Below are positions 7,409 through 59,166 of a DNA stretch of 64,000 bases, piece by piece; within the stretch, counting starts at the first letter, position 1; the number at the start of each line of letters is the position of its first letter. The DNA lies in the NCBI GenBank assembly GCA_020342235.1, contig CP073217.1, positions 1 through 64,000 of the forward strand. The letters run 5' to 3'. The notes below the pieces were generated by a model. That model saw only the letters and a program-made list of their open reading frames with translations, made no database searches and was not told the origin of the DNA. The position numbers were made by a program, and so were the translations under genes. This stretch comes from Saccharomycopsis phalli (taxonomy: Eukaryota > Ascomycota > Saccharomycetes > Ascoideales > Saccharomycopsidaceae).

Positions 7409-7743
7409 TGATATACTATCAAAAAACCTTAGACTGTGGTCAATCACAAGGAAAAACTTAATATGTAAATACGGCCCACATTATTAAATAAATAATATTG
7501 TAGGTTCGGAGCACAGAACTATCAGTAGCTACTATAACAATTATACATTGTTCCAATCGATACCGTAATATACATTCTGTATATAAAATTCTGAACTAAA
7601 TAACTTGGAGGCAGTAAATCCCTTTTATAAAGTATTATGGGTAGGGTAATACTGCTCCATCCGGTTGTAACCACATCATCAATAATCGTGGTTACGAGAC
7701 CAAGAACTCTGATAGGATAAGTACATTTCACTAATGTACGTCA
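7409..7743 (-). mobile_element. Solo LTR, family 1, 335 bp (fossil)
   Basis: Same length as, and closely similar to, the copies at 25686-26020 and 39378-39712. Termini on the plus strand are TGATATAC and GTACGTCA; a TATA box (CTTTTATAAAG region) shows that sense is the minus strand. It lies 135 bp beyond the 3' end of tRNA-Ser. Flanks show no matching 5-bp duplication, so this copy is older or rearranged. Confidence 0.75.
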
Positions 7744-7878
7744 TCAGCCCCAAGTTATTATTAAAATTGGCGAATCTATGTATGAGCTGAATAAGAATAG
7801 AATATCACAATGTAGATATTCATCCAAATACTGCAAAATCTACTCAAAGCTAGATCTTGGCTTAGTAAAAAAGATGAC

Positions 7879-7978
7879 GTCACAGACAGGATTCGAACCT
7901 GCGCAGGTAAAACCCAATGCCTAACAACTAGATTTAAATCATAGCAGGGCATCGCCTTAACCACTCGGCCACTGTAAC
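7879..7978 (-). tRNA. tS(GCU): tRNA-Ser(GCT) with 19-nt intron
   Basis: The 5' arm GTTACAG pairs with 3' CTGTGAC; the D-arm is TGGCCGAGTGGTTAAGGCG; the T-arm is GCAGG-TTCGAAT-CCTGT; and a long variable arm is present, as expected for a class II tRNA. The anticodon stem ATGCC/GGCAT encloses loop CTGCTA, an intron at 7923-7941, then A. Anticodon GCT reads AGC and AGT. A run of six T follows the 3' end on the minus strand as the Pol III terminator. Mature length is 81 nt. The intron must be cut by the endonuclease of which Sen2 (58006) is a subunit. Confidence 0.93.
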
Positions 7979-8159
7979 CAAGCTTTTTCCTCAAAAAGGT
8001 GATCTCCGATACCTTCCCTCTGGTGCATAGAAAGTACACGTGCCGTTCACGTGCATATATTTTTACTCAAAGGGATGTTGGAGACAACACTTCCCCACAA
8101 GAAGGTCGAGACAATTCTTCTCCACCAGGACGTCATGATGACGTACCTCGAATTTACGG

Positions 8160-15085: not shown

Positions 15086-18000
15086 ATGGCTGATCTAATT
15101 TTCCTGCTTTTATTATTTATATTTTTTGGTATTGCACTGTCTTTGGAAACATCACCTAGCGGTTGTAGTGCAAGATCTCAACCAACCGGTACTGGATTCG
15201 ATGTAAATATTTACGGTACATTATATAATGGGGAACGTGTGAATATATTGACAACGAGTGGATATAAAGACTACCCACTTGAAGCCACAATCAAAGGTGT
15301 TAACAATGCCCTGTTTCTGTTATCTCCTCCGCAAGGATATTACGAAGATTACTTTTATGGAAAAAAAATTTTTGTTTCCAATTTCTCCGCCGAATTTAAA
15401 GGGTACTTTAAACCTCCTCAAACTGGATTGTATGTGTTCAGTCTTAGCAACGCTGACGATGCTGCTATTTTATTTTTTGATACAGATTCTGCTTTTCATT
15501 GTTGTGATAGTTCAAATATTCCTTCGACATCCGTTCCAAAGAATTACGTATTAATTGGGACAGAAGCTGGTCCTTATAGCTGGACGGTATATCTCTACTC
15601 ACAATACTACTATCCACTTAGAGTTGCATACGATAATGTTGGGAGATATGCAACTCTAACTACGACTGTTCAGCCGCCTGGTGGACAGCCTCAAACTGAC
15701 TTTTCAAAGTACATTTATCAGTTTGATGAAGGTAACCCTGGTACCTGTCCAGTTGACACCACGCCAAGATCCACTACCACTACCACTGTTCCATGGACTG
15801 GCACAGTCACAACTACTGAAACAAGTACCGACACTACTGATCCTACTGCACCTGTTGTTATCAAAGTTGATTACCCCCGTAGTTATACATTAACTACTGA
15901 GCCTTGGACTGGGACAAATACTGTTACTTCCACTATCACTCCGACTGATCCAGCAGCACCATTAACAGTTGATGTTCTTACCCCTAGAAGTTATGTTTTG
16001 ACTACTGTGCCTTGGACCGGAACCAACACTGTTACATCCACTATCACTCCAACTGATCCAGCAGCACCATTGACAGTTGAAGTTCTTACACCTTTAAGCT
16101 ATGTTTCAACTACTATGCCCTGGACCGGAACCACAACTGTTACATCCACTATCACCCCAACTGATCCAGCAGCACCATTGACAGTTGAAGTTCTTACACC
16201 TTTAAGCTATGTTTCAACTACTATGCCCTGGACCGGAACCACAACTGTTACATCCACTATCACCCCAACTGATCCAGCAGCACCATTGACAGTTGAAGTT
16301 CTTACACCTTTAAGCTATGTTTCAACTACTGTGCCCTGGACCGGAACCACAACTGTTACATCCACTATCACCCCAACTGATCCAGCAGCACCATTGACAG
16401 TTGAAGTTCTTACCCCTAGAAGTTATGTTTCAACTACTGGACCTTGGACCGGAACTGATACTCAGACCTCCACTATCACCCCAACTGATCCAGCAGCACC
16501 ATTGACAGTTGAAGTTCTTACCCCTAGAAGTTATGTTTCAACTACTGGACCTTGGACCGGAACTGATACTCAGACCTCCACTATCACCCCAACTGATCCA
16601 GCAGCACCATTGATAGTTGATGTTCTTACCCCCATGAGTTATGTTTCAACTACCGAGCCCTGGACCGGAACTAATACTGCTACATCCACTATCCCTCCAG
16701 CAAATCCAACAGAACCTGGAACGGTTGTCGTGCTTACTCCGCCAAGCTACGTATTCACTACTGATACTTGGACTGGTACTTTGACCACAACATCAACAGG
16801 AACTCCTGCTCATCCTGGTGACCCTCAGACTGTTTATGTTTTGACTCCACAAGGTCCTTCTCAAGGTACTGTTTATACTACTGGTACTTGGACTGGTACT
16901 TTGACCACAACATCGACAGGAACTCCTGCTCATCCTGGTGACCCTCAGACTGTTTATGTTTTGACTCCACAAGGCCCTTCTCAAGGTACTGTTTATACTA
17001 CTGGTACTTGGACTGGTACACTGACCACAACATCAACTGGAACACCAGCAAATCCTAATGACCCGCAAACTGTTTATGTTTTGACTCCACAAGGCCCTTC
17101 TCAAGGTACTGTTTATACTACTGGTACTTGGACTGGTACACTGACCACAACATCAACTGGAACACCAGCAAATCCTAATGACCCGCAAACTGTTTATGTT
17201 TTGATTCCACAAGGCCCTTCTCAAAGTACTATTTATACTACTGGTACTTGGACTGGTACTTTGACCACAACATCGACAGGAACTCCTGCTCATCCTGGTG
17301 ACCCTCAGACTGTTTATGTTTTGACTCCACAAGGCCCTTCTCAAGGTACTGTTTATACTACTGGTACTTGGACTGGTACACTGACCACAACATCAACTGG
17401 AACACCAGCAAATCCTAATGACCCGCAAACTGTTTATGTTTTGACTCCACAAGGCCCTTCTCAAGGTACTGTTTATACTACTGGTACTTGGACTGGTACA
17501 CTGACCACAACATCAACTGAAACACCAGCAAATCCTAATGACCCGCAAACTGTTTATGTTTTGACTCCACAAGGCCCTTCTCAAGGTACTGTTTATACTA
17601 CTGGTACTTGGACTGGTACACTGACCACAACATCAACTGGAACACCAGCAAATCCTAATGACCCGCAAACTGTTTATGTTTTGATTCCACAAGGCCCTTC
17701 TCAAGGTACTGTTTATACTACTGGTACTTGGACTGGTACATTCACTACCACTTCCACTGGAACTCCAGGGCATCCTGGTGACCCGCAAACTGTTTATGTT
17801 TTGACTCCACAAGGTTCTTCTCATGGTACTGTTTATACCACTGGTACTTGGACTAGTACATTTACCACCACCAGGACAAGTTACCAAACTGACACTAACG
17901 GAGTAGTCAGTGTGTTTGTGGAAGTCCCACACGTTCCTTTTGAGCTCACTTCAAGGTCAAACGAGCCTCCTAGCCAACAAAGTGCCCGCTCCAGGGCTCC

Positions 18001-18160
18001 AGATGGTGCTTCAACACCATCAAATTCGGTGTCATCAAACCAACCTAGTTCCAGTTTTACACCATTAGTTGGACAAAGTTTAGAGGGGAAATCATCAAAA
18101 CTTGTTTCATATGGGATTGCTATTATTGCCGTTGCACTTGCTACTATTTTGATAATTTAA
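15086..18160 (+). CDS. GPI-anchored cell-wall adhesin: PA14/GLEYA lectin domain plus flocculin-type repeats
   Basis: 1024 residues. A signal peptide covers residues 1-20. A PA14/GLEYA-type domain spans about 25-225, shown by FKGYFKPPQTGLYVFSL, an adjacent DD pair (NADDAA, the calcium-binding position of Flo5-type lectins), AFHCC and YYPLRVAYDN. From about 235 come flocculin-type repeats built on PWTGT: a diverged copy, eight of 36 residues (STITPTDPAAPLTVEVLTP), then nine of 40 residues ([20 protein letters not shown]). A Ser-rich stalk and a hydrophobic tail (residues 1008-1024) preceded by EGKSSK form the GPI signal. It probably acts outside the cell in adhesion or flocculation; the sugar bound cannot be read from sequence. 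Repeat numbers are likely to vary between strains. Confidence 0.9.
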   Translation: MADLIFLLLLFIFFGIALSLETSPSGCSARSQPTGTGFDVNIYGTLYNGERVNILTTSGYKDYPLEATIKGVNNALFLLSPPQGYYEDYFYGKKIFVSNFSAEFKGYFKPPQTGLYVFSLSNADDAAILFFDTDSAFHCCDSSNIPSTSVPKNYVLIGTEAGPYSWTVYLYSQYYYPLRVAYDNVGRYATLTTTVQPPGGQPQTDFSKYIYQFDEGNPGTCPVDTTPRSTTTTTVPWTGTVTTTETSTDTTDPTAPVVIKVDYPRSYTLTTEPWTGTNTVTSTITPTDPAAPLTVDVLTPRSYVLTTVPWTGTNTVTSTITPTDPAAPLTVEVLTPLSYVSTTMPWTGTTTVTSTITPTDPAAPLTVEVLTPLSYVSTTMPWTGTTTVTSTITPTDPAAPLTVEVLTPLSYVSTTVPWTGTTTVTSTITPTDPAAPLTVEVLTPRSYVSTTGPWTGTDTQTSTITPTDPAAPLTVEVLTPRSYVSTTGPWTGTDTQTSTITPTDPAAPLIVDVLTPMSYVSTTEPWTGTNTATSTIPPANPTEPGTVVVLTPPSYVFTTDTWTGTLTTTSTGTPAHPGDPQTVYVLTPQGPSQGTVYTTGTWTGTLTTTSTGTPAHPGDPQTVYVLTPQGPSQGTVYTTGTWTGTLTTTSTGTPANPNDPQTVYVLTPQGPSQGTVYTTGTWTGTLTTTSTGTPANPNDPQTVYVLIPQGPSQSTIYTTGTWTGTLTTTSTGTPAHPGDPQTVYVLTPQGPSQGTVYTTGTWTGTLTTTSTGTPANPNDPQTVYVLTPQGPSQGTVYTTGTWTGTLTTTSTETPANPNDPQTVYVLTPQGPSQGTVYTTGTWTGTLTTTSTGTPANPNDPQTVYVLIPQGPSQGTVYTTGTWTGTFTTTSTGTPGHPGDPQTVYVLTPQGSSHGTVYTTGTWTSTFTTTRTSYQTDTNGVVSVFVEVPHVPFELTSRSNEPPSQQSARSRAPDGASTPSNSVSSNQPSSSFTPLVGQSLEGKSSKLVSYGIAIIAVALATILII
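15902..16765 (+). repeat. 108-bp coding tandem repeat, 8 units
   Basis: The PWTGT codons recur every 108 bp at 15902, 16010, 16118, 16226, 16334, 16442, 16550 and 16658. Units 4-5 and units 7-8 are almost identical neighbours, showing recent local duplication. Confidence 0.93.
16766..17845 (+). repeat. 120-bp coding tandem repeat, 9 units in two codon variants
   Basis: The TWTGT codons recur every 120 bp. Two unit types alternate in blocks, AHPGD and ANPND, in the order H H N N H N N N, with a GHPGD unit last. Each type carries its own silent codon set (for example ACTCCTGCTCATCCT against ACACCAGCAAATCCT), so exchange happens in whole units. Confidence 0.93.
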
Positions 18161-19076: not shown

Positions 19077-22000
19077 TCATGTGTTGGAGGAATCATATTC
19101 CAACACGTTCTGGTAGAACTCAAGGAGTTTGTGGACTGATTTTTGGTCGGCAAACACTTTTCCAAGCGTATTGCGTATGCCATGAGTGGAATCTAGTATG
19201 TCATCAATGCGCGATAGAATTCGAGCTTCTAGGAGCTCTGGGCATCGTAGGTCATGTATGATGGAGGGGGAGTGAGTCCCACATCGTTTGCACTTTGGGT
19301 CATCATTGCCAAATAATTTGAGCAACGATCCGTCTGTGAGGCTCTTTCCGCTGAGTAGTTGTGATGCCAAACTGAGGATTGCCTTGGGGCCTGCAAGTGC
19401 TTCCGTGAGGAGGAGCTTGGTTTTGTCTCGGTGCACTTTGAAAGGAGTGGTGCTGATTTTGCGTGCGTTCCTATAGTGGTTTGGGAATGATTCGCTGGTT
19501 GAGGTGATCATTGCTTGCCACTCTTTGGTTGCTGCGTCTGAGGCTATTTTCTTGAGCATCTGGATGCGGGTCCGTCTTGGATCTTGCATCGGTGGCGGGT
19601 CGTCCTCGAGTCGTTGTTCCTCTAGTGCATAATCCGCGCGTTGTTCAAGTAATCGAGCGGCTGCGTCAAACGTTCTGATATCTGGATTGTGGGGGCTGTT
19701 GCCTGTAACATGTCCTGGATAAGAGGGCGCTTTGGAATTATGATTCTCGTGCTTCCATTGATCGTGGTAGTTTGGAACAAACTTGAGCGGACTGGGTTTT
19801 GGCGTGATGTATTCATGAACCATCTCATAGATTTCATTATTGCCAAGGACTTGAGTAGGATCGTTGGTGGTGGAATACCACTTTCGATATAGATGATCGG
19901 GGTGGACGTGGGTCTGAGGAGGCCTAGCGCCAGTCGTAGGATTGAGTTGAATATCACACTGACCTGACCCCATTGGGTTTTTGTCATGCTGTTATAGAAC
20001 ACCTCGAGTCCATACGATATGATGGGGACTGCGCACGTTTTGAACAATATTATCGTGGTACGTCCCGTGGTTCCTCGTGTCATTCGGCTTAAGTACCTTA
20101 TTTGTTCAGCAGTACGGCGCATCTTGGACAATGTTTGTTTTAGATGGCTCCTGAAGCTGAGTCTTGAATCAAGGGTAATGCCTAATAACTTGACCTCGTT
20201 TGTTTCCTCCTTTCGTCCTCCGTTCGGAAGTTGGAGGCTAGATTCACAGTTCGGTAACCGTCTTCGATTCGGGAAGAATCGTATGTATTGTAGTTTCGGG
20301 CCATAGTCAAAGCTTGTGAAATTCTCTTGACCCCATTGATGGCATTCCTGTAAGCATCGTTGAAGTGTATGCTCAATGTCGCCTCGGGATCCCGTTTTGA
20401 CAATTGTAATGTCATCAATGAATCCTAAAGCCACAGCCCCTTTCCGCTCAAGCCGGTTGTAGAGGTCGTGGGTGTAGATCATGAAGAGGATTGGAGAGAT
20501 TGGAGAGCCTTGTGGGACACCGAACGTAACGGGGAGGTGCTGGTCTGATAACTGTCCATCAATTTTTAGCTGAGTGCTTCGGTTCTGGAGGAAGTTATTA
20601 GTCCAATTAATTATCTCGGGTGGAGCGCCGACGGCCTGCATCTTTTGTAGTAGGATCGGGTGGCTCATGTTGTTGAAGGCACCTTCAATGTCGACTAGGA
20701 CTGCTCCGGAGTGGCTGGAGTTGTCTAGTGGCATTTTCTGGTTGTCCTTGAGGTGAGTCTGGGCGTGGACCTTGAGGTTATTTACTAAGGTTGTAACCGC
20801 ATCCGTTGCGCAGTACCCTTTGCGCCCCCCAAATTGGTAAGATGGAAGTTGGATTTTGGCAACCAATCTTTGGGTCATGATTGACTCGAAGATTTTCCCA
20901 AGTATATTGAGTAAGCTAATTGGTCGAAATGATTTTGGTGTCTCGTAATTGGCCTTTCCCGGTTTCGGGATTACTACCGTGATGCTGGTTTTCCACTGTT
21001 TGGGGAATGCTCCAAGTTTGAGGCACGCGTTGTAGATCAATTCCAACTGGTCAGGGAAGGTTTTCCCATGCCAAAGCTCCCTGATTTGACCAACGGTGAG
21101 CTGGTCAGGACCTGGAGCTTTTTTGAGCTTTAGGTATCTGATGGTGTTGAATATTTCCTCCTTCGTTATTGGTTCGATGTCGTCCCAATGAGTGTTGTGC
21201 GGTTGGAACGAAGCTGGCGTGAGGCTCTCACCTACAGTGATCTGTGGGTAAAAGGTTTTGCCAAAGGCTTCGTGTTGTTCCTCGTACAGTTTCATCATTC
21301 TATGGCGCTTTGCTGGGTTTGTGTATCTGTAAGCAGTCCAGATGGTGGTGTGGTCCAACTTGAGTAAGAAATCATTCCAGCACTTGGATTTGGCTTTTTG
21401 AACAGTTTCCTGAAAGGCCTTCTGAGCATTGCTTCGTTCTGGATTGTCCATTGCGAGGCTTGTGACAGTTCTATACGCGTCTTTGACTTCTTGAGTGAAC
21501 CACCTTTTTGAGCGGCTATTTACTAGTTTCATCGGGGTGTTTCTGTCAATTAGTTGCCTTAGACTCTGGGTTAACTTGGCGGATGCCTTGTTTAGTTCAT
21601 CCTCTGTGTGGATGGCGCTTGCGAACCGACGTTTATCTAGTGTTGCACGTACCTTTGACCAGTCCGTTTTAGAGTAGTTATGCACCGTTTTTGGCTTGAT
21701 CTTGTTCGACATGTCGGGAGGGCGGAGTGATACGCGAAGACCGAAGTGGTCGGAGCCGAATTGCCGAAGCTTTGGCTGTGGTGTCACTTGCCCTTCCAAC
21801 TTATCGCTGATTAGTATAACATCAAGAGTGTTACCGTCACGGTGTGTGGGCTGGTCGATGATGTTAAGGCATTGGAGTTTCCCCATTTCCATGATGTCAT
21901 CGATCCTCAGTGTGGCCTTCCGTGCTTCCACCCCTGCTATGTTGCGAGAGGTAAAGGCTGGGTGGGCTGCATTGAGGTCGCCCATGATAATTCCATTGAA

Positions 22001-22429
22001 AATTCCTTGTTTGTCTATAATGTAGTTTCTTACTAGTTTTAGCGACCGGGACTTGAGGTGGGCCTTGGAATCGTGCGGCGCATTGTAGATGTTGATGATG
22101 TCTACAACTTGCTTTCGTGATTCTAAGGTGATTCCCACACAGTCTCTATCTTTTAATTCATTGATATACCTTGTGCGGTAGCCATATTGTTGATCTTTAA
22201 TTTTCTTGTTAACATATGTCGTGGCCCTAGGTCGGGCTGACTGGTCGTTTACCTCAGGGAGGTAATCATATTTGTCATAGGCGGCGTGGTTGCAAGTCTC
22301 ATCGGGGTTGCACTGACGTGCAGTCTCCTGGACTAATAGTATTACTGCCGAATTCTTGTAATGGTCAAGGACCGCTTCTAGATGCGGCCTTCGTTTCTGG
22401 ATGTTGATCGAGATGATTGTTATCTTCAT
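19077..22429 (-). pseudogene. LINE-A ORF2: apurinic-type endonuclease, reverse transcriptase, Cys/His finger (one frameshift)
   Basis: From the ATG at 22427-22429 a 935-residue frame runs to 19622. Endonuclease motifs: VQETAR, GDLNAAHP and GSDHFGLRV. Reverse transcriptase motifs: SFRPISLLNILGKIFE, VDIEGAFNN, GVPQGSPISPILF and GFIDDITIV (catalytic DD kept). The C-terminal domain with CKRCGTHSPSIIHDLRC (C-x2-C-x8-H-x3-C) is in another frame, 19077-19973. The frames overlap between 19622 and 19973, so a single indel lies there, probably near 19650-19720, since protein similarity to other copies switches frame there. ORF2 overlaps the end of ORF1 by 65 bp. The host-like function is target-primed reverse transcription of its own RNA. 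Confidence 0.92.
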
Positions 22430-23882
22430 TGTGATCCAACTTGGCTTGAGTCACTGTGGGAAACCATCTGAGTTCGACTTGACCGTAGATTATATCTTGA
22501 TGTCGAGTTCTCATCAGAGCTGGGTAAGTCTCCGTCGTATTGATCACTAGATCTTTTGGGATCTTGGGTTGACTGGAGGGGTTACTCGTGGCGTTTGGGT
22601 TTCCCGGTGTGCCGCTTTGTGCGGTGGAAGCAGGAGGGATGGAAGATGGTTGGCTCGTTTTTGACTTGGAGCCGCGGCTTCGGCGTGGCCGTCGCGGTGA
22701 CTCTTTGAGGAGGTCAAGGTGAGTCCGTTTCCGGATGTTGCGCTTTCCCTTGTACTCGGTTAGTCTGTGGATTTCTCCTTCGATGCAGTAGCGTTGTTCT
22801 GACGCGAATTGCGCTGTTGCCTCGTCCGGGAAGAATAACCGAGCTGAGTAGCGTTTTGTGCATTCGATAGGGATTGTGGACCAATCCGGCATGTTTTCTG
22901 GGCTAATGAGTGGTCTTGGTGCGGAACACAAGGCTTCTCCTTCCCACTGCGCATTTCTTAAGGTTCTCGAAATTTCGAGTGCGACGTTGTCGGGGGAGAA
23001 GGTTGCTGGGACGTTTTGGATTACCCGTGAGACCCATGGTTTTGTGTTGAGTGGTCCTGGTGATCCGAGCGCAGATTGGAGTGTCAACTTGTTTTCGTCG
23101 GTGAAGGGTTCGTTTAGGTGGACCCTGAAGTGGTGCGCCGCGGTGAGGCTGATCATGCTGATCTTGCATGCCGACTGGTCAATGATGGCTTTGGACTCAA
23201 CTTCAAATTGGATGCGTTTTGTAGCGTCCCATGTTCGACTTTGAGGATTAACGTAATAGGCTAATCTACCAGCGGTTTCAAGGTCTTTGCCAGTTGGTCT
23301 TTGCTCCCGGGTTTTGGTTCTGGTTGCAGTGTGGCCACGTTTTGATGAGGTGGCCGGGGGTGCGAGGAATGCATGTTGGGTTTGTAGAAACTGAATGGCT
23401 TCCTCCTGTCCAGCTTGGCGGAGGAAGGTGGTTGTATCAAGTTTGTAAAACCGGGCGGCCCCAGAGATTGCGTTAGTGAGTACTCCCTAGGCCTGTATAG
23501 CGTCACGAGCCCTGTCCTCAAATGTGTAATTTGAGTTCCCGCTTTGGGAGGGGTGGTCAGTTTCATATGGTTGGATAAGCTTTTCTTCGACGTTTTGTCG
23601 GTTCCAAGTTTGTGGGGGTGGCGAGATGGCACCTGGTGGGGTGTTGTATCCGCTTGTTTCGTGCTCTGAGGGGTTGGTTTCGTCCTCCTCGGTGAGGCCA
23701 TAGGATTTTTTAATTTGGCCGTTGGTGTGTGTTGCTGGTGCCCTGGTGGCACTTGGGTCAATTTGAAGTTGGTTAATAGATTCGCCGTGGAAATCCATAC
23801 GGTTTGCTATTGTTTGGGGCCCTAATGGGTCGCCCGGGGGTTCAAACTCATTTTGTGTTTCACCAAATTGGGAAGAACTCAT
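22365..23882 (-). pseudogene. LINE-A ORF1, one in-frame amber stop
   Basis: One frame runs from ATG at 23880-23882 to the stop at 22365 and is interrupted only by TAG at 23487-23489, after DAIQA. Without it the product would be about 505 residues. It has no CCHC knuckle; the middle holds NKLTLQSALG and RLFFPDEATAQFASEQRY blocks also seen in family B, and the C-terminal third is basic and then rich in Pro, Ser and Asn. As in other LINEs it probably coats the RNA. At the same place the old copy at 1-745 has Ser, so the stop is a lesion of this copy rather than a family trait. Confidence 0.85.
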
Positions 23883-24224: not shown

Positions 24225-25027
24225 GCACTAGAGGAACAGCGACTCGAAGGCGACCCACCACCGATACAAGATCCAAGGCGGGCCCGCATCCAGATGCTCA
24301 AGACAATGGCCTCAGACGCGGCTACCAAAGAGTGGCAAGAAATGGTCACCTCAACCAGTGACTCACTTCCAAACCACTATAGGAATGCGCGCAAGATCAG
24401 CACCAGTCTGTTCAAAGTGCACCGAGACAAAACCAAGCTCCTCCTCACAGAAGCGCTTGCAGGCCCCAAGGCAATCCTCAGTTTGGCATCACAACTACTC
24501 AGCGGAAAGAGCCTCACAGACGGATCGTTGCTCAAATTATTTGGCAATGATGACCCAAAGTGCAAACGATGTGGGATTCACTCCCCCTCCATCATACATG
24601 ACCTACGATGTCCAGAGCTCTTAGAAGCTCGAATTCTATCGCGCATTGATGACACACTAGATTCCACTCATGGCATACGCAATACGCTTGGAAAAGTGTT
24701 TGCCGACCAAAAATCAGTCCACAAACTCCTTGAGTTCTACCAGAACGTGTTGGAATATGATTCCTCCAACACATGATGAGATTCAGCGGTCACATTCGAC
24801 AACAAGAGTGACCAGGCTTCTTACACAATCCATACAAGCACCAAGCACCAACAATATAACTGCCTCCATTGAAGCTTTTAATCCCAAGCAACCAAGTGAG
24901 GGTTGACAAAGGGTTTTCTTCAACAGCAATGCTGCCTCAGGATGTTCCTGAGTGAAAATATATCTGTCGAATAACCGTATTGCCGGAGACAATATATAGC
25001 TAAATACAAAAATAAATATTACTATTA
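24225..25027 (+). mobile_element. LINE-A 3' fragment, 5'-truncated, inverted relative to the whole copy
   Basis: Nearly identical to the reverse complement of 18841-19625. It encodes the last 160 residues of ORF2 without interruption (24294-24776, including CKRCG...RC), then the 3' untranslated part and a tail AAATATTACTATTA. It starts abruptly inside an LTR scrap. 5' truncation is the usual result of incomplete target-primed reverse transcription. With the whole copy it forms a head-to-head inverted repeat with a spacer of about 4.6 kb. Confidence 0.9.
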
Positions 25028-25129
25028 AACGGAGAAGAGACTACACTAGGATCGTCATCATGTGACCAACTTTTTATATCAAATAATGTGAAATAACACA
25101 TGAGGTATTATTCCATATAATAAAAATTA

Positions 25130-25201
25130 GGTCGTACCCGGGTTCGAACCGGGGTCTACGGAATCAGAATCCGCCGTGTTAAACCTCTACACTATACAAC
25201 C
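25130..25201 (-). tRNA. tQ(CUG): tRNA-Gln(CTG)
   Basis: The 5' arm GGTTGTA pairs with 3' TACGACC. The anticodon arm is GCGGA-TTCTGAT-TCCGT with anticodon CTG, which reads CAG. The T-arm is CCCGG-TTCGAAC-CCGGG. No intron; 72 nt; a run of five T follows on the minus strand. A solo LTR begins 56 bp upstream of the 5' end. Confidence 0.93.
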
Positions 25202-25257
25202 ACTTGTTGAGAAATTTTAGTAAGTGTGGTACATTACCCTGTTCAACAAAAATCCCC

Positions 25258-25544
25258 TGTAACGAGAAAAGGTCAAGACTACTCTTCACGTGATTGTACC
25301 CTGTGATAATGTTGTGATTGTGTTCCTTAGTACTATTGTGATTGTGTTCGGAGTGTCCCACATATTACACAAGTACAAATCCATTCTTAGGAAAAGTATA
25401 AATAGCTGTTTAAGTTGCTAGTAATGGGATATCTTAAGTTCACTTTAGAACTATTTACAACTTATATTTGTAGTTACTCTTATTATCTTATTGATTAACT
25501 CGATATAAGTGTTATAGCAGAAGCGTTGAATAAATTCTGTTATA
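25258..25544 (+). mobile_element. Solo LTR, family 2, 287 bp, TSD TCCCC, 56 bp upstream of tRNA-Gln (fossil)
   Basis: Runs from TGTAACGAGAAAAGG to TTCTGTTATA and is flanked by TCCCC at 25253-25257 and 25545-25549. An internal TATA (AGTATAAATAGC) gives the sense direction, away from the tRNA. It is nearly identical to 39775-40061. The end is TA instead of the common CA, also in the other copies. Only the LTR is present, so it is a relic of recombination between the two LTRs. Confidence 0.88.
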
Positions 25545-25550
25545 TCCCCT

Positions 25551-26214
25551 TGTAACGAGATAAGGTCAGGACGCCCTTAGTCACGTGCTCATATGGTTAT
25601 GAAGGTATGCATCGCGATATCTGGAGGGTATTGGATGAAGTAATTAGAAGTGGCGCAGCAACTGCTTACGGGAGGTAGCGTTAGTTGATGTACTAACAAA
25701 AAACCTTAGACTGTAATCAATCATAAGGAAAAACTTAATACGTAAATACGGCCCACAATATTAAATAAATAATATTGTAGGTTCGGAGCACAGAACTATC
25801 AGTAGCTACTACAACAATTATACATTGTTCCAATCGATACCGTAATATACATTGTGTATATAAAATTCTGAACTAAATTACTTGGAGGCAGTAAAGCCCT
25901 TTTATAAGGTATTATAGGTAGGGTAATACTGCTCCATCCGGTTGTAACCACATCATCAATAATCGTGGTTACGAGACCAAGAACTCTGATAGGATAAGTA
26001 CATTTCACTAATGTACGTCATTAGTCTATCTACCTTAGGTAGCATCGGGCTACCCTACTTAGGAAAGAGTATAAATATGAAGGAAATACAATATTGAGGA
26101 CAACCAAGGATTTGGAGATCAACTTACAACTTATATTCTGTAGTTAGCGTATCTTGTATTGCTAATTGGATTGTATAAGTGATATAACGAACCCATCGAA
26201 CTAATTTCGTTATA
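25551..26214 (+). mobile_element. Older family 2 LTR, split by a family 1 solo LTR (fossil)
   Basis: Starts TGTAACGAGATAAGGTC immediately beyond the younger copy and ends TTTCGTTATA at 26214. Its middle is displaced by the family 1 LTR at 25686-26020. Diverged from the young copies and without visible target duplication, hence older. Confidence 0.7.
25686..26020 (-). mobile_element. Solo LTR, family 1, 335 bp, TSD TTAGT, nested in the older family 2 LTR (fossil)
   Basis: TGATGTACTAAC to GTACGTCA on the plus strand, flanked by TTAGT at 25681-25685 and 26021-26025. Sense is minus, judged from the TATA box. Closely similar to 39378-39712. Only the LTR remains. Confidence 0.9.
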
Positions 26215-31797: not shown

Positions 31798-34700
31798 ATG
31801 AAAATTGAAATTCTAGCACTATGTGCGTTTACCTTCTTTGGGACTTCACTCGCGGTAGAGGGAGATCCACTGAACTTGGGTGCAGTCAGTGCAGTTGATG
31901 GTTGTGTTATGACTGCTCTGCCAATTCGGTCTGGATTTGATGTTACCTTTTATCAAAATCCAATTTGGGTGCCACTCCAATACTCTGTGATTCAAGATGG
32001 ATATAGAAATGGTGCTATTGTCGGATCAGCTACCGGTATTAACAATGTCAATATAAACATTCAAGTGCCTTTAGACAGTAATGTTGTGGATGGACAGGTC
32101 TTTGGGGTTCCCATTACTATTTCCAATTTTAGTGCAGCTTTTACTGGGTACTATCAAGCTCCTGAAAGTGGCTATTATAATTTCCAGCTTGACAACGTTG
32201 ATGATGGAGCCGGCTTCTTTATTGGTGACGGTTCTGCCTTTAGCTGTTGTGGCAGTAAAGGACAGCCACCATCCATTCCAGAAAATAACATTTACGCAAT
32301 AGGTGTCGGTATTTCCCCATCAAGAAATATCTATCTTCAAGCTGGAAGCTACTATCCAATTCGGGTCATGTACTTCAATGGTGGAAGTCTTGGCTCCCTA
32401 CAGTTTGCTGTTAGGTTACCTAGTGGGGCTACAGTAACCGATTTTGGCAGTACTGTCTCCCAGTTTGATGAAACAGGTACATGTCAGTCTATTGTTACTA
32501 CCATCACAACGTCTCGAAGTACAATAACAAGCCCGGTTCCTTGGACAGGTACAGTGACTAGCACACTATCTTCTATCAATCCAACTGACCCAGATGTACC
32601 TGTTATTGTGTTTGAGGAAACTCCGCGGACTACTCTTACCTTAACAGTACCTTGGACTGGGACAATAACAAATACTTTGACTAATACTGACCCAAACCTT
32701 TCATCTCCTGTCACAGTTATTGTCGAAACCCCCCGTCCTTCCATTACTGTCACCGCGCCTTGGACTGGGCTGACAACCAATACCATCACCAACACCGATC
32801 CTAATCTTTCATCACCAGTTTTTATTGTTGTTTTAACTCCACAGGGTCCAACCACAGTGACTGCTCCTTGGACGGGAACAATCACAACTACCTCGACTGG
32901 TACGCCTGCAAACCCCGGTGATCTAACAACAGTAGTGGTCCAAACTCCTTTCAATAGAGTTACAACTACTACCCCGTGGACTGGTACCACTACAGATACT
33001 ACCACTATTTTCCCAATAGGTAGTACTGGTGTTATCTCTGTTATTGTTCAAACACCGGATATTCTGACAACAACCGTCCCTTGGACTGGAACTACCCCAC
33101 GAACTTCAACTTATCCTCCTTTAAATCCTGGTGACCCATCATTGGCAGTTGTTGAAACTCCGTTCTCTAGAACTACAACAACTACCCCTTGGACTGGTGT
33201 TAGTACTGATACTACCACTATTTTCCCAGACGCTAGCACTGGTATAATATCCATTATAGTCTTAACTCCTGGTGTTGGTGGAGGAGTTCCTGTTACGGTG
33301 ACTTCTCCTTGGACTGGAACAACATCAACTACTTCCACTGGTACTCCTGCAAAACCTGGTGATCCAACAACGGTGGTTATTTTGACTCCTACCAATCCTG
33401 GTGGTGGAGCTGGAGGACCTCCAAGTGATACCACAATAACTTCTCCTTGGACCGGTACTACCATAACTACTTCAACTGGTACTCCTGCAAACCCTGGCGA
33501 TCCAACAACGGTGGTTATTTTGACTCCAACTGTCACCGGAAGTGTTCCTGTTACAGTAACTTCTCCTTGGACTGGAACAATCACAACTACTTCAACTGGT
33601 ACTCCTGCAAAACCTGGTGATCCAACAACGGTGGTTATTTTAACTCCAACTGTCACCGGAAGTGTTCCTGTTACAGTAACTTCTCCTTGGACTGGAACAA
33701 TTACAACTACTTCAACTGGTACTCCTGCAAAACCTGGTGATCCAACAACGGTGGTTATTTTGACTCCTACCAATCCTGGTGGTGGAGCTGGAGGACCTCC
33801 AAGTGATACCACAATAACTTCTCCTTGGACCGGTACTACCATAACTACTTCAACTGGTACTCCTGCAAACCCTGGCGATCCAAAAACGGTGGTTATTTTG
33901 ACTCCAACTGTCACCGGAAGTGTTCCTGTCACAGTAACTTCTCCTTGGACTGGAACAATCACAACTACTTCAACTGGTACTCCTGCAAAACCTGGTGATC
34001 CAACAACGGTGGTTATTTTGACTCCTACCAATCCTGGTGGTGGAGCTGGAGGACCTCCAAGTGATACCACAATAACTTCTCCTTGGACCGGTACTACCAT
34101 AACTACTTCAACTGGTACTCCTGCAAACCCTGGCGATCCAACAACGGTGGTTATTTTAACTCCAACTGTCACCGGAAGTGTTCCTGTTACAGTAACTTCT
34201 CCTTGGACTGGAACAATTACAACTACTTCAACTGGTACTCCTGCAAAACCTGGTGATCCAACAACGGTGGTTATTTTAACTCCAACTGTCACCGGAAGTG
34301 TTCCTGTTACAGTAACTTCTCCTTGGACGGGAACAATCACAACTACTTCAACTGGTACTCCTTTAAACCCTGGTGATCTAACAACAGTGATTATTTTAAC
34401 TCCTATTCAAAGGGTTACTACCACAGTTCCATGGACAGGTGTTGGTCTTACTACAGCAACTATTTTCCCAACTGGTGGAAGTGGGACTATCTCTGTCATC
34501 ATTCAAGTTCCTCATTCATCCGGATATTTTAATGCAACCACAACCACTACAACTCAAATCAATGGTGGCGGACCAAATACCAGTGGTGTACCAAATACTA
34601 GTGGTGTACCAAATACTAGTGATGTACCAAATACCAACGGTGGAACAGGTTCTAATGGTGGAACAGACTCTAATGGTGGAACAGGCTCTAATGGTGGAAC

Positions 34701-35463
34701 AGGCTCTAATGGTGGAACAGGCTCTAATGGTGGAACAGGCTCTAATGGTGGAACAGGTTCTAATGGTGGAACAGGTTCTAATGGTGGAACAGGTTCTAAT
34801 GGTGGAACAGGCTCTAATGGTGGAACAGGCTCTAATGGTGGAACAGGCTCTAATGGTGGAACAGGTTCTAATGGTGGAACAGACTCTAATGGTGGAACAG
34901 GCTCTAATGGTGGAACAGGCTCTAATGGTGGAACAGGCTCTAATGGTGGAACAGGCTCTAATGGTGGAACAGGTTCTAATGGTGGAACAGGTTCTAATGG
35001 TGGAACAGGTTCTAATGGTGGAACAGGCTCTAATGGTGGAACAGGCTCTAATGGTGGAACAGGCTCTAATGGTGGAACAGGCTCTAATGGTGGAACAGGC
35101 TCTAATGGTGGAACAGGTTCTAATGGTGGAACAGGTTCTAATGGTGGAACAGGTTCTAATGGTGGAACAGGTTCTAATGGTGGAACAGGTTCTAATGGTG
35201 GAACAGGTTCTAATGGTGGAACAGGTTCTAATGGTGGAACAGGTTCTAATGGTGGAACAGGTTCTAATGGTGGAACAGGCTCTAATGGTGGTTCACAGCC
35301 TAAGGTACCAACTCAAGTTCTGACCCTCGTTTCCTTGAATTCCCCTTCACCATTAACTCAATCTACTCCATCAATTGGCCAAGCGTTCCAAGGAGGCTCA
35401 TCTAAACTTGTGTCTTTCCATATTGCTGTTCTCAGCATTATCGCTGCAATTGTAATGGTATAA
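31798..35463 (+). CDS. GPI-anchored cell-wall adhesin: PA14/GLEYA domain, flocculin repeats, Gly-Thr-Ser-Asn stalk
   Basis: 1221 residues, paralogous to the gene at 15086. Signal peptide 1-19. The PA14/GLEYA-type domain spans about 35-230 ([21 protein letters not shown] in [23 protein letters not shown]). About 15 PWTGT repeats follow, first diverged, then an array of 46- and 40-residue units. Residues 948-1163 are 36 copies of GGTGSN (two read GGTDSN). The C-terminus has GGSSKLVSF followed by a hydrophobic tail, a GPI signal very like that of the first adhesin (KSSKLVSY). The Gly/Asn-rich stalk is lacking in the first adhesin and would lengthen the presentation of the lectin domain. A cell-surface adhesin is well supported; the ligand is unknown. 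Confidence 0.9.
33307..34320 (+). repeat. Coding tandem repeat of 138- and 120-bp units in order X Y Y X Y X Y Y
   Basis: PWTGT codons occur at 33307, 33445, 33565, 33685, 33823, 33943, 34081 and 34201. X units (138 bp) end with a [16 protein letters not shown] linker; Y units (120 bp) end with [10 protein letters not shown]. The unit after an X carries ANPGD and the unit after a Y carries AKPGD without exception, so linker and following unit move together. Confidence 0.9.
34639..35286 (+). repeat. 18-bp coding minisatellite, 36 units, with a 216-bp higher-order repeat
   Basis: The unit is GGTGGAACAGGYTCTAAT. Marking units by the codon after ACA (t = GGT, c = GGC, d = GAC) gives tdcccctttccc, tdcccctttccc, cc, nine t and c. 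The first two blocks of 12 are identical at 34639-34854 and 34855-35070. The unit is a multiple of three, so changes in number keep the frame. Confidence 0.95.
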
Positions 35464-39377: not shown

Positions 39378-39712
39378 TGACGTACATTAGTGAAATGTAC
39401 TTATCCTATCAGAGTTCTTGGTCTCGTAACCACGATTATTGATGATGTGGTTACAACCGGATGGAGCAGTATTACCCTACCTATAATACCTTATAAAAGG
39501 GCTTTACTGCCTCCAAGTAATTTAGTTCAGGATTTTATATACAGAATGTATATTACGGTATCGATTGGAACAATGTATAATTGTTATAGTAGCTACTGAT
39601 AGTTCTGTGCTCCGAACCTACAATATTATTTATTTAATATTGTGGGCCGTATTTACGTATTAAGTTTTTCCTTATCATTGATCACAGTCTAAGGTTTTTT
39701 GTTAGTACATCA
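39378..39712 (+). mobile_element. Solo LTR, family 1, 335 bp, TSD TATGC (fossil)
   Basis: TGACGTACATTAG to GTTAGTACATCA, flanked by TATGC at 39373-39377 and 39713-39717. TATA box CCTTATAAAAGG about 110 bp inside. It is the same length as the copies at 7409 and 25686. It lies 405 bp upstream of tRNA-Leu, behind the family 2 LTR. Confidence 0.92.
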
Positions 39713-39774: not shown

Positions 39775-40061
39775 TATAACAGAATTTATTCAACGCTTCT
39801 GCTATAACACTTATATCGAGTTAATCAATAAGTTAATAAGAGTAACTACAAATATAAGTTGTAAATAGTTCTAAAGTGAACTTAAGATATCTCATTACTA
39901 GCGACTTAAACAGCTATTTATACTTTTCCTAAGAATGGATTTGTACTTGTGTAATATGTGGGACACTCCGAACACAATCACAATAGTACTAAGGAACACA
40001 ATCACAACATTATCACAGGGTACAATCACGTGAAGAGTAGTCTTGACCTTTTCTCGTTACA
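39775..40061 (-). mobile_element. Solo LTR, family 2, 287 bp, TSD ATCAA, 56 bp upstream of tRNA-Leu (fossil)
   Basis: Reverse complement of 25258-25544 with few differences. Flanked by ATCAA at 39770-39774 and 40062-40066. Sense points away from the tRNA. Perfect duplication and high identity make it a young insertion. Confidence 0.92.
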
Positions 40062-40117
40062 ATCAAACATTTTTGTGGCCATCCATATATCCTAACTAGA
40101 AAATTAGTTTTCAAGTT

Positions 40118-40198
40118 GGTAACGTGGCCGAGTGGTCTAAGGCGCCAGGTTAAGGTCCTGGTATCTTCGGATGCGCGAGTTCGAATCTCGCCGTTATC
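40118..40198 (+). tRNA. tL(AAG): tRNA-Leu(AAG)
   Basis: The 5' arm GGTAACG pairs with CGTTATC. D-arm TGGCCGAGTGGTCTAAGGCG; anticodon arm CCAGG-TTAAGGT-CCTGG with anticodon AAG, which reads CTT and CTC after inosine change; long variable arm; T-arm CGAG-TTCGAATCTCG. No intron; 81 nt; a T5 terminator follows at 40204. Confidence 0.94.
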
Positions 40199-41376
40199 AA
40201 TAAGTTTTTGCATTGTAAATTAATGTGTGTGAATAAAATTACTGGAATTCCCTTTGAAATATTTTTTAAGTGGGTCGTCAAGATACCAAGAAAAAGGTGT
40301 ATGTCTAGTATAGCCGCACGTTAACCGTTGTGAATAGAATTTCCATAACCCCAGTAAGGTAGCTATCAATATGGCAGCGTAGATATTCTAATTGTATGAC
40401 CGTATTATACGGTTAATATGATCTATCATACACCCAAGACAATAGTATGCTGTAAGATTACAAGTATAGTATGTCACAAACGTATCACGAAACGGAATGT
40501 GTACATACGAGATCTATTATAAAAGATGCAAGCTATTGTACTTTGTTTGGAAGTTAGTAAAAATCACAGCAAAAGTAGTGCCAGGGGACTGATAAGAACG
40601 TAATCTTTCCCACCAGTGTATCTTGGACTCGTCTTATATTTGCTACGTACTCGAATAAATAGCCAGTGCACCCTTTTGAATCGTTTGTATAGAACCCTCG
40701 GACTGCTTATAATTACTAACAGCGCATATGATAGCACCAGATGCGTTATTGTCTGACACAATGGCGTTTTAGTCGGAGTGAATCTTTTTTTGCTTACTGA
40801 CATATTTGTGCCGCACGATGAAATTAGCGAGGTACATTCTGTATGATTTATTACTTCTACTGTTTGGCCGGTTATTCTCTGTTACTGGTTAGACAGGCAG
40901 TACCAGTTTCAGGAAGTAATTTTTGATTAATAAAAGTAAGAATTAACAGACAAGAAAATGCAAGGCCATGCTGAAGCTTTAATACTTTTTATTACCGAAT
41001 TTCATCTGCTTCACAGACGACAAAAGGGCAATCAGGCGAGTCTTCTAGGTACTAATTTGTCGTGGCAATGAATAATTAAAATAATATCAGTGATGAATTC
41101 ATCACTCGGCCATTTTTTTGTAGTTTATGATTCCATGAGTAGTTTTCTTCCTGTTGACAACATTCAATACCGATATGATATTTTTTTCCCAATGAGAACA
41201 ACAGTCAATGGGCTCTTCATTGTATATAAAGACAAGTCGCTAAATAAGGAATGTGTTGAACTAAAAGCTAGATAGAAATATGTTGGGAATACGTCTCCGT
41301 TGATCAAGAATACTGGCGTCCTGAAGTTACCCGCCCGATGTAGTGATAAATCTTTTGGGCCATTGAGAGTGACGGC
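40199..41376. other. Intergenic region before DCR2
   Basis: A 79-codon ATG frame on the minus strand (40564-40803) has no recognisable features and is not called. Nothing else seen. This stretch marks the change from repeat-rich to gene-dense sequence. Confidence 0.35.
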
Positions 41377-58005: not shown

Positions 58006-59166
58006 ATGAGTAAGTACAAGCAGAGACTTCACCAGAAGTACCCAGATCCACTTCCTATAACCGTAATATTCGACCAAGCTGTCGTACCAAGTATCATTCC
58101 TCATAATTTAGTAACGTGGTTCCAGTTTATCGCTGAATATTGTTACAAGAGTGTGTTGGTCGCTCGTCGTGCTGCTGATCGTGCATGGATTACTGACTCG
58201 AAAATTTTGGTAAAGTGCGAACAAGGCGTGTTTAAAGTGGAGATTGACGGGCAAAAAGACGATGCGGCAAGGCTCTGGCGACAAGGATTTTTTGGCAAGG
58301 GAATTTTAAGCAGAAGTGAGCCGACTTGGTACGAAAGAACCGAGCGACGGTTGGGGTTGGTGAAAAATTATAGTGTGCAAGACTTGAGTTCGGAAGAGGT
58401 GACTGAATTACGACGACAGGAGCGACGAGAGTTCAAGGCAATGCGGGAGAAGTTTGAGGAGCAGCAATTGGAATTGGAAAAGCAGATTTCTGAGAAGGTG
58501 GGAAGTGAAGAAGCATCGGGTAAAGAGGTGCAAGAATTGGTGAGTGAGTTGGAGAAATTAAAAAAGACGAAATTGAAGAGTGACATTCGGCTGTTCCGTC
58601 GGTCACACAAGGTGAAATTGTACCAGGGAGAAATCACTCGTCTGGAGGACCAGCAAATCATTGAAAGTGGGGTCTTGCAGCGGTTGGAATATCTTCAGTT
58701 GATGCCAGAGGAGGTTTTCTTTCTCCAGTTTGCCGTGGGAATTGTGGATTCTGGGCTCTCTTCAGTGGAATTGTACAATGGCTTGTGTAAAAGTAGGCAT
58801 TTTGCACGAAACTATGCGGTGTATCATTATTATCGGTCCAGAGGCTGGTGCGTGAGGTCGGGGATCAAATTTGGCGTGGACTTTTTATTGTATGAAAAGG
58901 GGCCGCCGATTTCTCACGCTGAGTACTGTTTGCATGTTGTGGACGAGAATTGCGACTTGAATTTCATTGAATTTTCAAGTTTGCAAAGAGTCATTGGTGG
59001 TGTTCGTAAAACGTTGGTGTTGGTGTATGTCAAGGGACCTGATGAATCAAAGATGAAAGAGTTGAAAGTGTACCAAGGAGATGAGTATTTGAAGGAGCTA
59101 TTGAGACTGTATTCGGTGACAGAAGTGGTCTATCGTCGGTGGTTGCCTAGTCGAAATCGTGATTAG
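58006..59166 (+). CDS. SEN2: tRNA-splicing endonuclease subunit Sen2
   Basis: 386 residues (about 377 in S. cerevisiae). Sen2 cuts the 5' side of tRNA introns as part of the Sen2-Sen15-Sen34-Sen54 complex. The C-terminal nuclease fold is at about 265-386: VYHYYRSRGWCVRSGIKFGVDFLLY, KGPPISHAEYCLHVVD and RKTLVLVYV. The catalytic triad is Tyr296, His304 and Lys335. Residues 125-200 are a charged, likely coiled-coil insert rich in Glu and Lys (EEVTELRRQERREFKAMREK). The N-terminal PLPITVIF and WFQFIAEYCYKSV match the family. The ATG at 58006 is the first in frame. The tRNA-Ser and tRNA-Trp genes in this window are natural substrates. Confidence 0.95.
   Translation: MSKYKQRLHQKYPDPLPITVIFDQAVVPSIIPHNLVTWFQFIAEYCYKSVLVARRAADRAWITDSKILVKCEQGVFKVEIDGQKDDAARLWRQGFFGKGILSRSEPTWYERTERRLGLVKNYSVQDLSSEEVTELRRQERREFKAMREKFEEQQLELEKQISEKVGSEEASGKEVQELVSELEKLKKTKLKSDIRLFRRSHKVKLYQGEITRLEDQQIIESGVLQRLEYLQLMPEEVFFLQFAVGIVDSGLSSVELYNGLCKSRHFARNYAVYHYYRSRGWCVRSGIKFGVDFLLYEKGPPISHAEYCLHVVDENCDLNFIEFSSLQRVIGGVRKTLVLVYVKGPDESKMKELKVYQGDEYLKELLRLYSVTEVVYRRWLPSRNRD

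Follow-up and report, generated by a model that had tools for sequence, protein, structure and literature searches.

LTRs of three related families, here called A, B and D, stand at a nearly fixed distance upstream of tRNA genes in the Saccharomycopsis phalli genome (14,148,124 bases in 8 contigs). Among 44 insertions tied to a tRNA gene, 42 lie 54–60 bp upstream of it, with a median of 56.5 bp and a standard deviation of 1.28 bp for those 42, and the remaining two lie at 48 and 86 bp. A first-pass annotation of the window, which is the 64,000-nucleotide stretch C6:1-64000, had anticipated a sharp genome-wide peak near 56 bp, and the genome bears this out. A second group of families, some with closely related integrases, keeps a shorter distance of about 13 bp.

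In the window, a tRNA-Gln(ctg) gene on the minus strand (25129-25201; ARAGORN; Rfam RF00005, 62.7 bits) is the anchor from which the distance is measured. A 287-bp family A solo LTR with the ends TGTAAC...GTTATA lies on the plus strand at 25258-25544, 56 bp upstream of the tRNA 5ˊ end, and shares its sequence at 287/287 positions with six further LTRs elsewhere in the assembly. Its target-site duplication (TSD), TCCCC, is present on both sides as first described (plus strand, 25253-25257 on the tRNA side and 25545-25549 for the other copy). Beyond it stands a family B LTR in two plus-strand parts, a 5ˊ part at 25551-25685 and a 3ˊ part at 26026-26214, and between them lies a 335-bp family C solo LTR (25686-26020, plus strand) flanked by the TSD TTAGT at 25681-25685 and 26021-26025, as had been proposed. 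When A and 5 bp are subtracted, B falls 57 bp from the tRNA, again in agreement with the earlier measurement, and A, B and C indeed amount to three insertions stacked at one tRNA gene. The second family A solo LTR of the window (39775-40061, minus strand, TSD ATCAA) lies 55 bp upstream of its own anchor, a tRNA-Leu(aag) gene at 40117-40200 on the plus strand (ARAGORN).

The suggestion that the outer LTR is an older copy of the same family was not sustained. Pairwise BLAST aligns A and B over 22 bp at their starts and a 31-bp internal stretch alone, which rules out a single family, and we therefore treat B as separate but related. The 5ˊ 135 bp of B are 100% identical at four places in the genome, the window included, so B is not visibly older. 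Once the C insert is removed, a single difference in 324 positions separates the window copy from an unbroken one at C2:424948-425271. The flanks of the window B were compared for a TSD and do not match (CCCCT versus ATTGC); its intact 5ˊ end suggests that B nevertheless landed at this position.

Other features of the window can be described by the look of their reading frames. Frames resembling those of a non-LTR (LINE-type) element, endonuclease and reverse transcriptase included, occupy 19077-23156 on the minus strand, and a truncated LINE-type-looking copy on the plus strand (24294-24776) ends beside the tRNA-Gln locus. Two long frames at 15086-18160 and 31798-35463 look like secreted, adhesin-like proteins with tandem repeats. 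A tRNA-splicing protein encoded at 58006-59163 shows 46% identity to Saccharomycopsis crataegensis and 65% to an unnamed protein. On the scale of the genome, Copia (RVT_2) and integrase matches gather in blocks, roughly one to a chromosome, in which tRNA genes are interspersed. These blocks are at C1:735-830 kb, C1:2042-2143 kb (C1 having two), C2:386-434 kb, C3:1680-1717 kb, C4:378-450 kb, C5:1172-1226 kb, C6:215-310 kb and C7:1099-1141 kb. In S. fibuligera, one study describes one copia LTR island per chromosome as a proposed centromere (PMC5106798).

Genome searches gave 34 matches for A, 15 and 36 for the two halves of B, and 45 for D, the third relative, which was reached via B. Seventeen of the 36 B-half matches and 12 of the 45 D matches were dropped as cross-matches between B and D or as small overlaps. 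The tRNA genes came from ARAGORN runs on selected stretches of the genome and in some cases from Rfam, with 63 of 806 candidates scored in the genome tRNA search. Insertions were tied to tRNA genes by hand, and for nested copies each intervening LTR or element plus 5 bp was subtracted. Of the tied insertions, 25 are direct, with 23 at 54–59 bp and the others at 48 and 86 bp, and 19 are nested, all of them at 55–60 bp. All 14 tied copies of A (13 direct and 1 nested) fall at 54–58 bp and all 12 of B at 55–60 bp, while 16 of 18 D copies fall at 54–59 bp and the other two are the outliers. The tied insertions are spread, in both orientations, over 38 tRNA genes that represent many isoacceptors. 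A full 5/5 TSD was found for 25 of 33 copies tested (A, 15/17; B, 5/10; D, 5/6), and these duplications are AT-rich and varied in sequence. The expectation that the LTRs always point away from the tRNA proved wrong, since 32 of 44 point toward it and 12 away.

The shorter distance belongs to families E, Eˊ, F, G and H, whose LTRs end in TTACA, as opposed to GTTATA (TG...TA) in A, B and D. The 27 listed insertions of these families, which were collected because they adjoin tRNA genes, lie 11–18 bp upstream with a median of 13 bp. Family E is represented by an LTR at C1:2143075-2143363 (TSD AAATT). A full-length E is found at C6:260632-266165 (13 bp from tRNA-Asp), an F copy with a 1571-aa frame is 13 bp from tRNA-Thr, and a G copy is 14 bp from tRNA-Asp. 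A single H LTR at C2:432319-432622 stands between two tRNA genes, tRNA-Val and tRNA-Ala, at 12 bp from each. The window contributes a short G-like LTR fragment (8002-8042, plus strand), a partial match only, whose start would fall about 12 bp upstream of a minus-strand tRNA-Ser gene (7878-7978), the position typical of this class. In a blind check, the rule placed a tRNA gene 12–13 bp to the left of the F LTR at C2:2159739, and a tRNA-Pro gene was then found at 12 bp. Beyond that F LTR, a D copy at C2:2160170 is 56 bp from the same tRNA-Pro, which replaces an initial reading of D as lying inside a tRNA-like gene.

At least five A, B or D copies lie inside or against LTRs of the shorter-distance class and still keep 56–60 bp. 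For example, an A copy at C7:1135145 inside an Eˊ LTR is 58 bp from tRNA-Ala, D copies inside a G LTR (C2:1196226) and an H LTR (C6:253563) are at 57 and 56 bp, and a B copy abutting the end of an Eˊ LTR (C2:416391) is at 56 bp. With subtraction, B copies inside an older G LTR (C4:682074) and in a further LTR seen by eye (C3:1682020) are at 57 and 60 bp. Because the distance is kept when the DNA at this position has been replaced, the ruler follows the tRNA gene rather than the local sequence, and the data thus support a distance counted from the gene. Deeper stacks follow the same two spacings. Four landings are present at a tRNA-Ala gene at C6:217304, with F at 12, E at 13, G at 12 and D at 56 bp (E and G by hand subtraction), and a stack at C6:234147 has B, A and B at 57, 56 and 57 bp.

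A uniform pass over the tRNA genes in the examined stretches gave a similar picture, although ARAGORN missed some tRNA genes there that an earlier run had found. The nearest LTR belonged to A, B or D in 16 cases, 14 of them at 54–58 bp; the exceptions are one at 48 bp and one at 146 bp, the latter an A copy that is 57 bp from a neighbouring tRNA-Leu. The shorter-distance class was nearest in 25 rows (one tRNA-Asp appearing twice), of which 23 are at 12–16 bp, and the exceptions are an Eˊ fragment at 29 bp and an F scored at 233 bp, whose true start, in a piece too short to match, is at 12 bp. As a control, none of 29 family C copies (those over 250 bp in the examined stretches), measured straight to the nearest tRNA with no subtraction, fell at 54–60 or 11–18 bp upstream. 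These direct distances cluster loosely at 96–98 bp upstream and 82–85 bp downstream of tRNA genes. Family C (335 bp, TGATGT...ACGTCA) has 46 matches genome-wide and occurs in the window at 7409-7743 and 39378-39712 besides the copy inside B. Random points in the examined stretches fall at 54–59 bp in 0.13% of cases. Under an even spread of direct insertions across the first 150 bp, the observed 23 of 25 would correspond to P about 2e-30, a value that conveys scale only because the interval was chosen afterwards and the copies are related.

Another 26–27 copies, mostly fragments, are not tied to a tRNA gene: with pieces merged by hand, 10 belong to A, 7 to B and either 9 or 10 to D. The D count varies with the treatment of two old pieces at C6:295896-296195. 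The untied copies include the only full-length B (C4:431549-436816) and, next to an H LTR, a full-length D (C6:275027-279573). Rfam found no RNA gene within 1.5 kb of two intact A copies at C2:2147492 and C1:762318, both with 5/5 TSDs, which speaks against a missed 5S or other RNA gene beside them. The 5S search of the genome (47 of 409 candidates scored) gave one match, at C2:294603, far from both. These two copies look like off-target landings. LTR copies far from any Pol III gene, which the first pass had set against its own proposal, do exist. Another A copy, in a G LTR at C4:439520, is at odds with the ruler, at 418 bp from tRNA-Gly, and for an A copy in a G LTR at C7:1102685 there is no tRNA gene in the surrounding stretch examined.

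The proteins of these elements place them near Ty3. A 760-aa ORF of family A contains RNase H (residues 69-194), H2C2 integrase zinc (326-382) and rve (405-498) domains, the last with a score of 27.9, below its cut-off of 32.6. The order of RNase H before integrase is that of Ty3/gypsy elements (Metaviridae), and the ORF matches the Ty3 integrase 7q5b_A with an E value of 1.8e-90, or 4.6e-77 when a five-family profile is used. The LTRs of A, B and D, however, lack the TG...CA ends of Ty3/gypsy elements. Two 3.3-kb A copies, at tRNA-Gln (57 bp) and tRNA-Val (54 bp), are the same except for 3 inserted or deleted bases, and the 760-aa ORF of both is devoid of a reverse-transcriptase domain, so that these copies probably moved in trans. 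A chromodomain was not found by sequence, with no Pfam match up to an E value of 10; in the comparison with 7q5b and the profile, homology ends before the Ty3 chromodomain, and about 80 more residues follow.

The integrases of A, B, E and F are closely alike across the two distance classes. Pairwise identities are 68% for A-B, 67% for A-E, 66% for A-F, 71% for B-E, 64% for B-F and 65% for E-F, compared with 43–47% to G, and therefore the ruler has moved some 43 bp between closely related elements. The integrase tree joins B with E (73% bootstrap) and adds A next (39), and because A is not grouped with B, the ruler does not simply follow the clades. As an explanation of the ruler, the tree is weak and not concordant. 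A possible switch is a tail of about 12 residues at the C terminus, present in A and B and absent from E and F, since the A and B frames run about 12 codons past the E and F stops. However, E and F keep the DNA after their earlier stops, and thus the tail may only reflect conserved DNA near the 3ˊ LTR. The D copy inspected has a broken frame there.

Ty3 offers the closest comparison, with its RNase H-then-integrase order, homologous integrase, 5-bp TSDs and solo LTRs fixed upstream of tRNA genes. Published work describes placement of Ty3 via TBP/Brf1, with docking between the TATA box and the start (PMC8632968), and insertion 1–4 bp away from where transcription begins, which is about 15 bp from the mature 5ˊ end (PMC5911963, PMC5006619). 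Families E–H, at 11–18 bp from the mature end, are near this site, whereas A, B and D lie about 43 bp farther out and have LTRs that end in TA rather than CA. In the review table of PMC5911963, Ty3/gypsy tRNA targeters insert at the start site or no more than 33 bp from the mature end, with one downstream. Among them, Tj1, Tca8/beta, Tyl3, Tyl6, Ylt1 and DGLT-A are at the start site or 6–33 bp from the mature end. The only entries of that table near 40–64 bp are the non-LTR elements TRE5 and NLTR-B. A search that covered open-access titles and abstracts and this table yielded no Ty3/gypsy element at about −56, and section 20 of PMC13148404 gives no tRNA distances.

Elements of the TRE5 type do share the longer distance and tandem stacking, with TRE5-A at 40–54 and NLTR-B at 39–64 bp upstream of tRNA genes (PMC5911963, PMC5391098). 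The study PMC5391098 puts the amoebal TRE5-A at 47±3 bp, describes binding of its ORF1 protein to TFIIIB subunits, and reports that TFIIIB covers −40 to +5 on yeast 5S. The integration chemistry of TRE5-A and NLTR-B is different, with no integrase or LTR, whereas the families studied here have LTRs and 5-bp TSDs. TRE5-type elements are non-LTR elements that use target-primed reverse transcription.

Taken as a whole, the best explanation, and one that we consider reasonably probable, is a ruler set by the tRNA gene, with TFIIIB as its presumed anchor and the two classes flanking it. The A, B and D integrases would dock on the upstream face of TFIIIB to give the −56 class, and the separation of about 43 bp between the classes would compare well with the span of about 40–45 bp that TFIIIB occupies on yeast 5S. 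New copies would enter between the tRNA gene and older copies, pushing the latter outward. It is plausible that Pol III factors do the measuring, and the contrast between about 56 and about 13 bp in sister families makes it likely that their integrases read the same tRNA-gene protein complex from opposite sides. A more elaborate version, which we offer only tentatively, holds that one integrase lineage, with sisters less than 36% apart, reads TFIIIB from both ends and strikes mirrored positions that bracket the TBP complex. The C-terminal tail would flip −13 to −56, and upstream regions would be ordered strata with the newest copy of each class nearest the gene. An exact mirror through the centre of the TATA box predicts 47 bp between the sites, by our own reading of the Ty3 oligonucleotide, and 43 bp is observed.

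The anchor might instead be some other component with a constant place at Pol III genes. Candidates are TFIIIC bound to the A box, the polymerase, which serves Ty1 in this way, and the border of the first nucleosome upstream. Each of these also stands at a fixed distance from the tRNA. Ty1 likewise inserts upstream of genes transcribed by Pol III and relies on AC40/AC19 of Pol III and on nucleosomes (PMC10050235, PMC3545840). It has copia gene order and spreads over a region of about 1 kb in steps of about 80 bp. Against such an anchor, the standard deviation of 1.3 bp among 42 insertions is tighter than this periodic pattern. Moreover, the −13-class relatives occupy the Ty3 position, where TFIIIB is the known anchor, and we regard an anchor other than TFIIIB as unlikely, though a serious competitor.

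Two further accounts dispense with a ruler read from proteins at the gene. Copying of LTR-bearing tRNA segments, or recombination between LTRs, could multiply one spacing in place of repeated landings, and it would suit the LTR-rich stacks, the several B copies without TSDs, layouts shared by some loci (474 bp at two tRNA-Gly loci) and the H LTR between two divergent tRNA genes. It fits poorly with 44 insertions that are distributed over 38 tRNA genes for many isoacceptors, point either way and carry different TSDs, which makes it very improbable. Selection by the integrase of a DNA sequence or bend that happens to occur at −56 is harder still to credit. The AT-rich TSDs would suit it, but they vary, and the target is a unique flank in some cases and elsewhere, at an unchanged distance, an Eˊ, G or H LTR.

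To our knowledge, Ty3 is the only element with structural information on the way its integrase gauges the distance to a Pol III gene. Matched integrases that are 64–71% identical and land about 43 bp apart, both precisely, could reveal the residues that set the ruler. In addition, the stacks give the relative order of landing at single tRNA genes.
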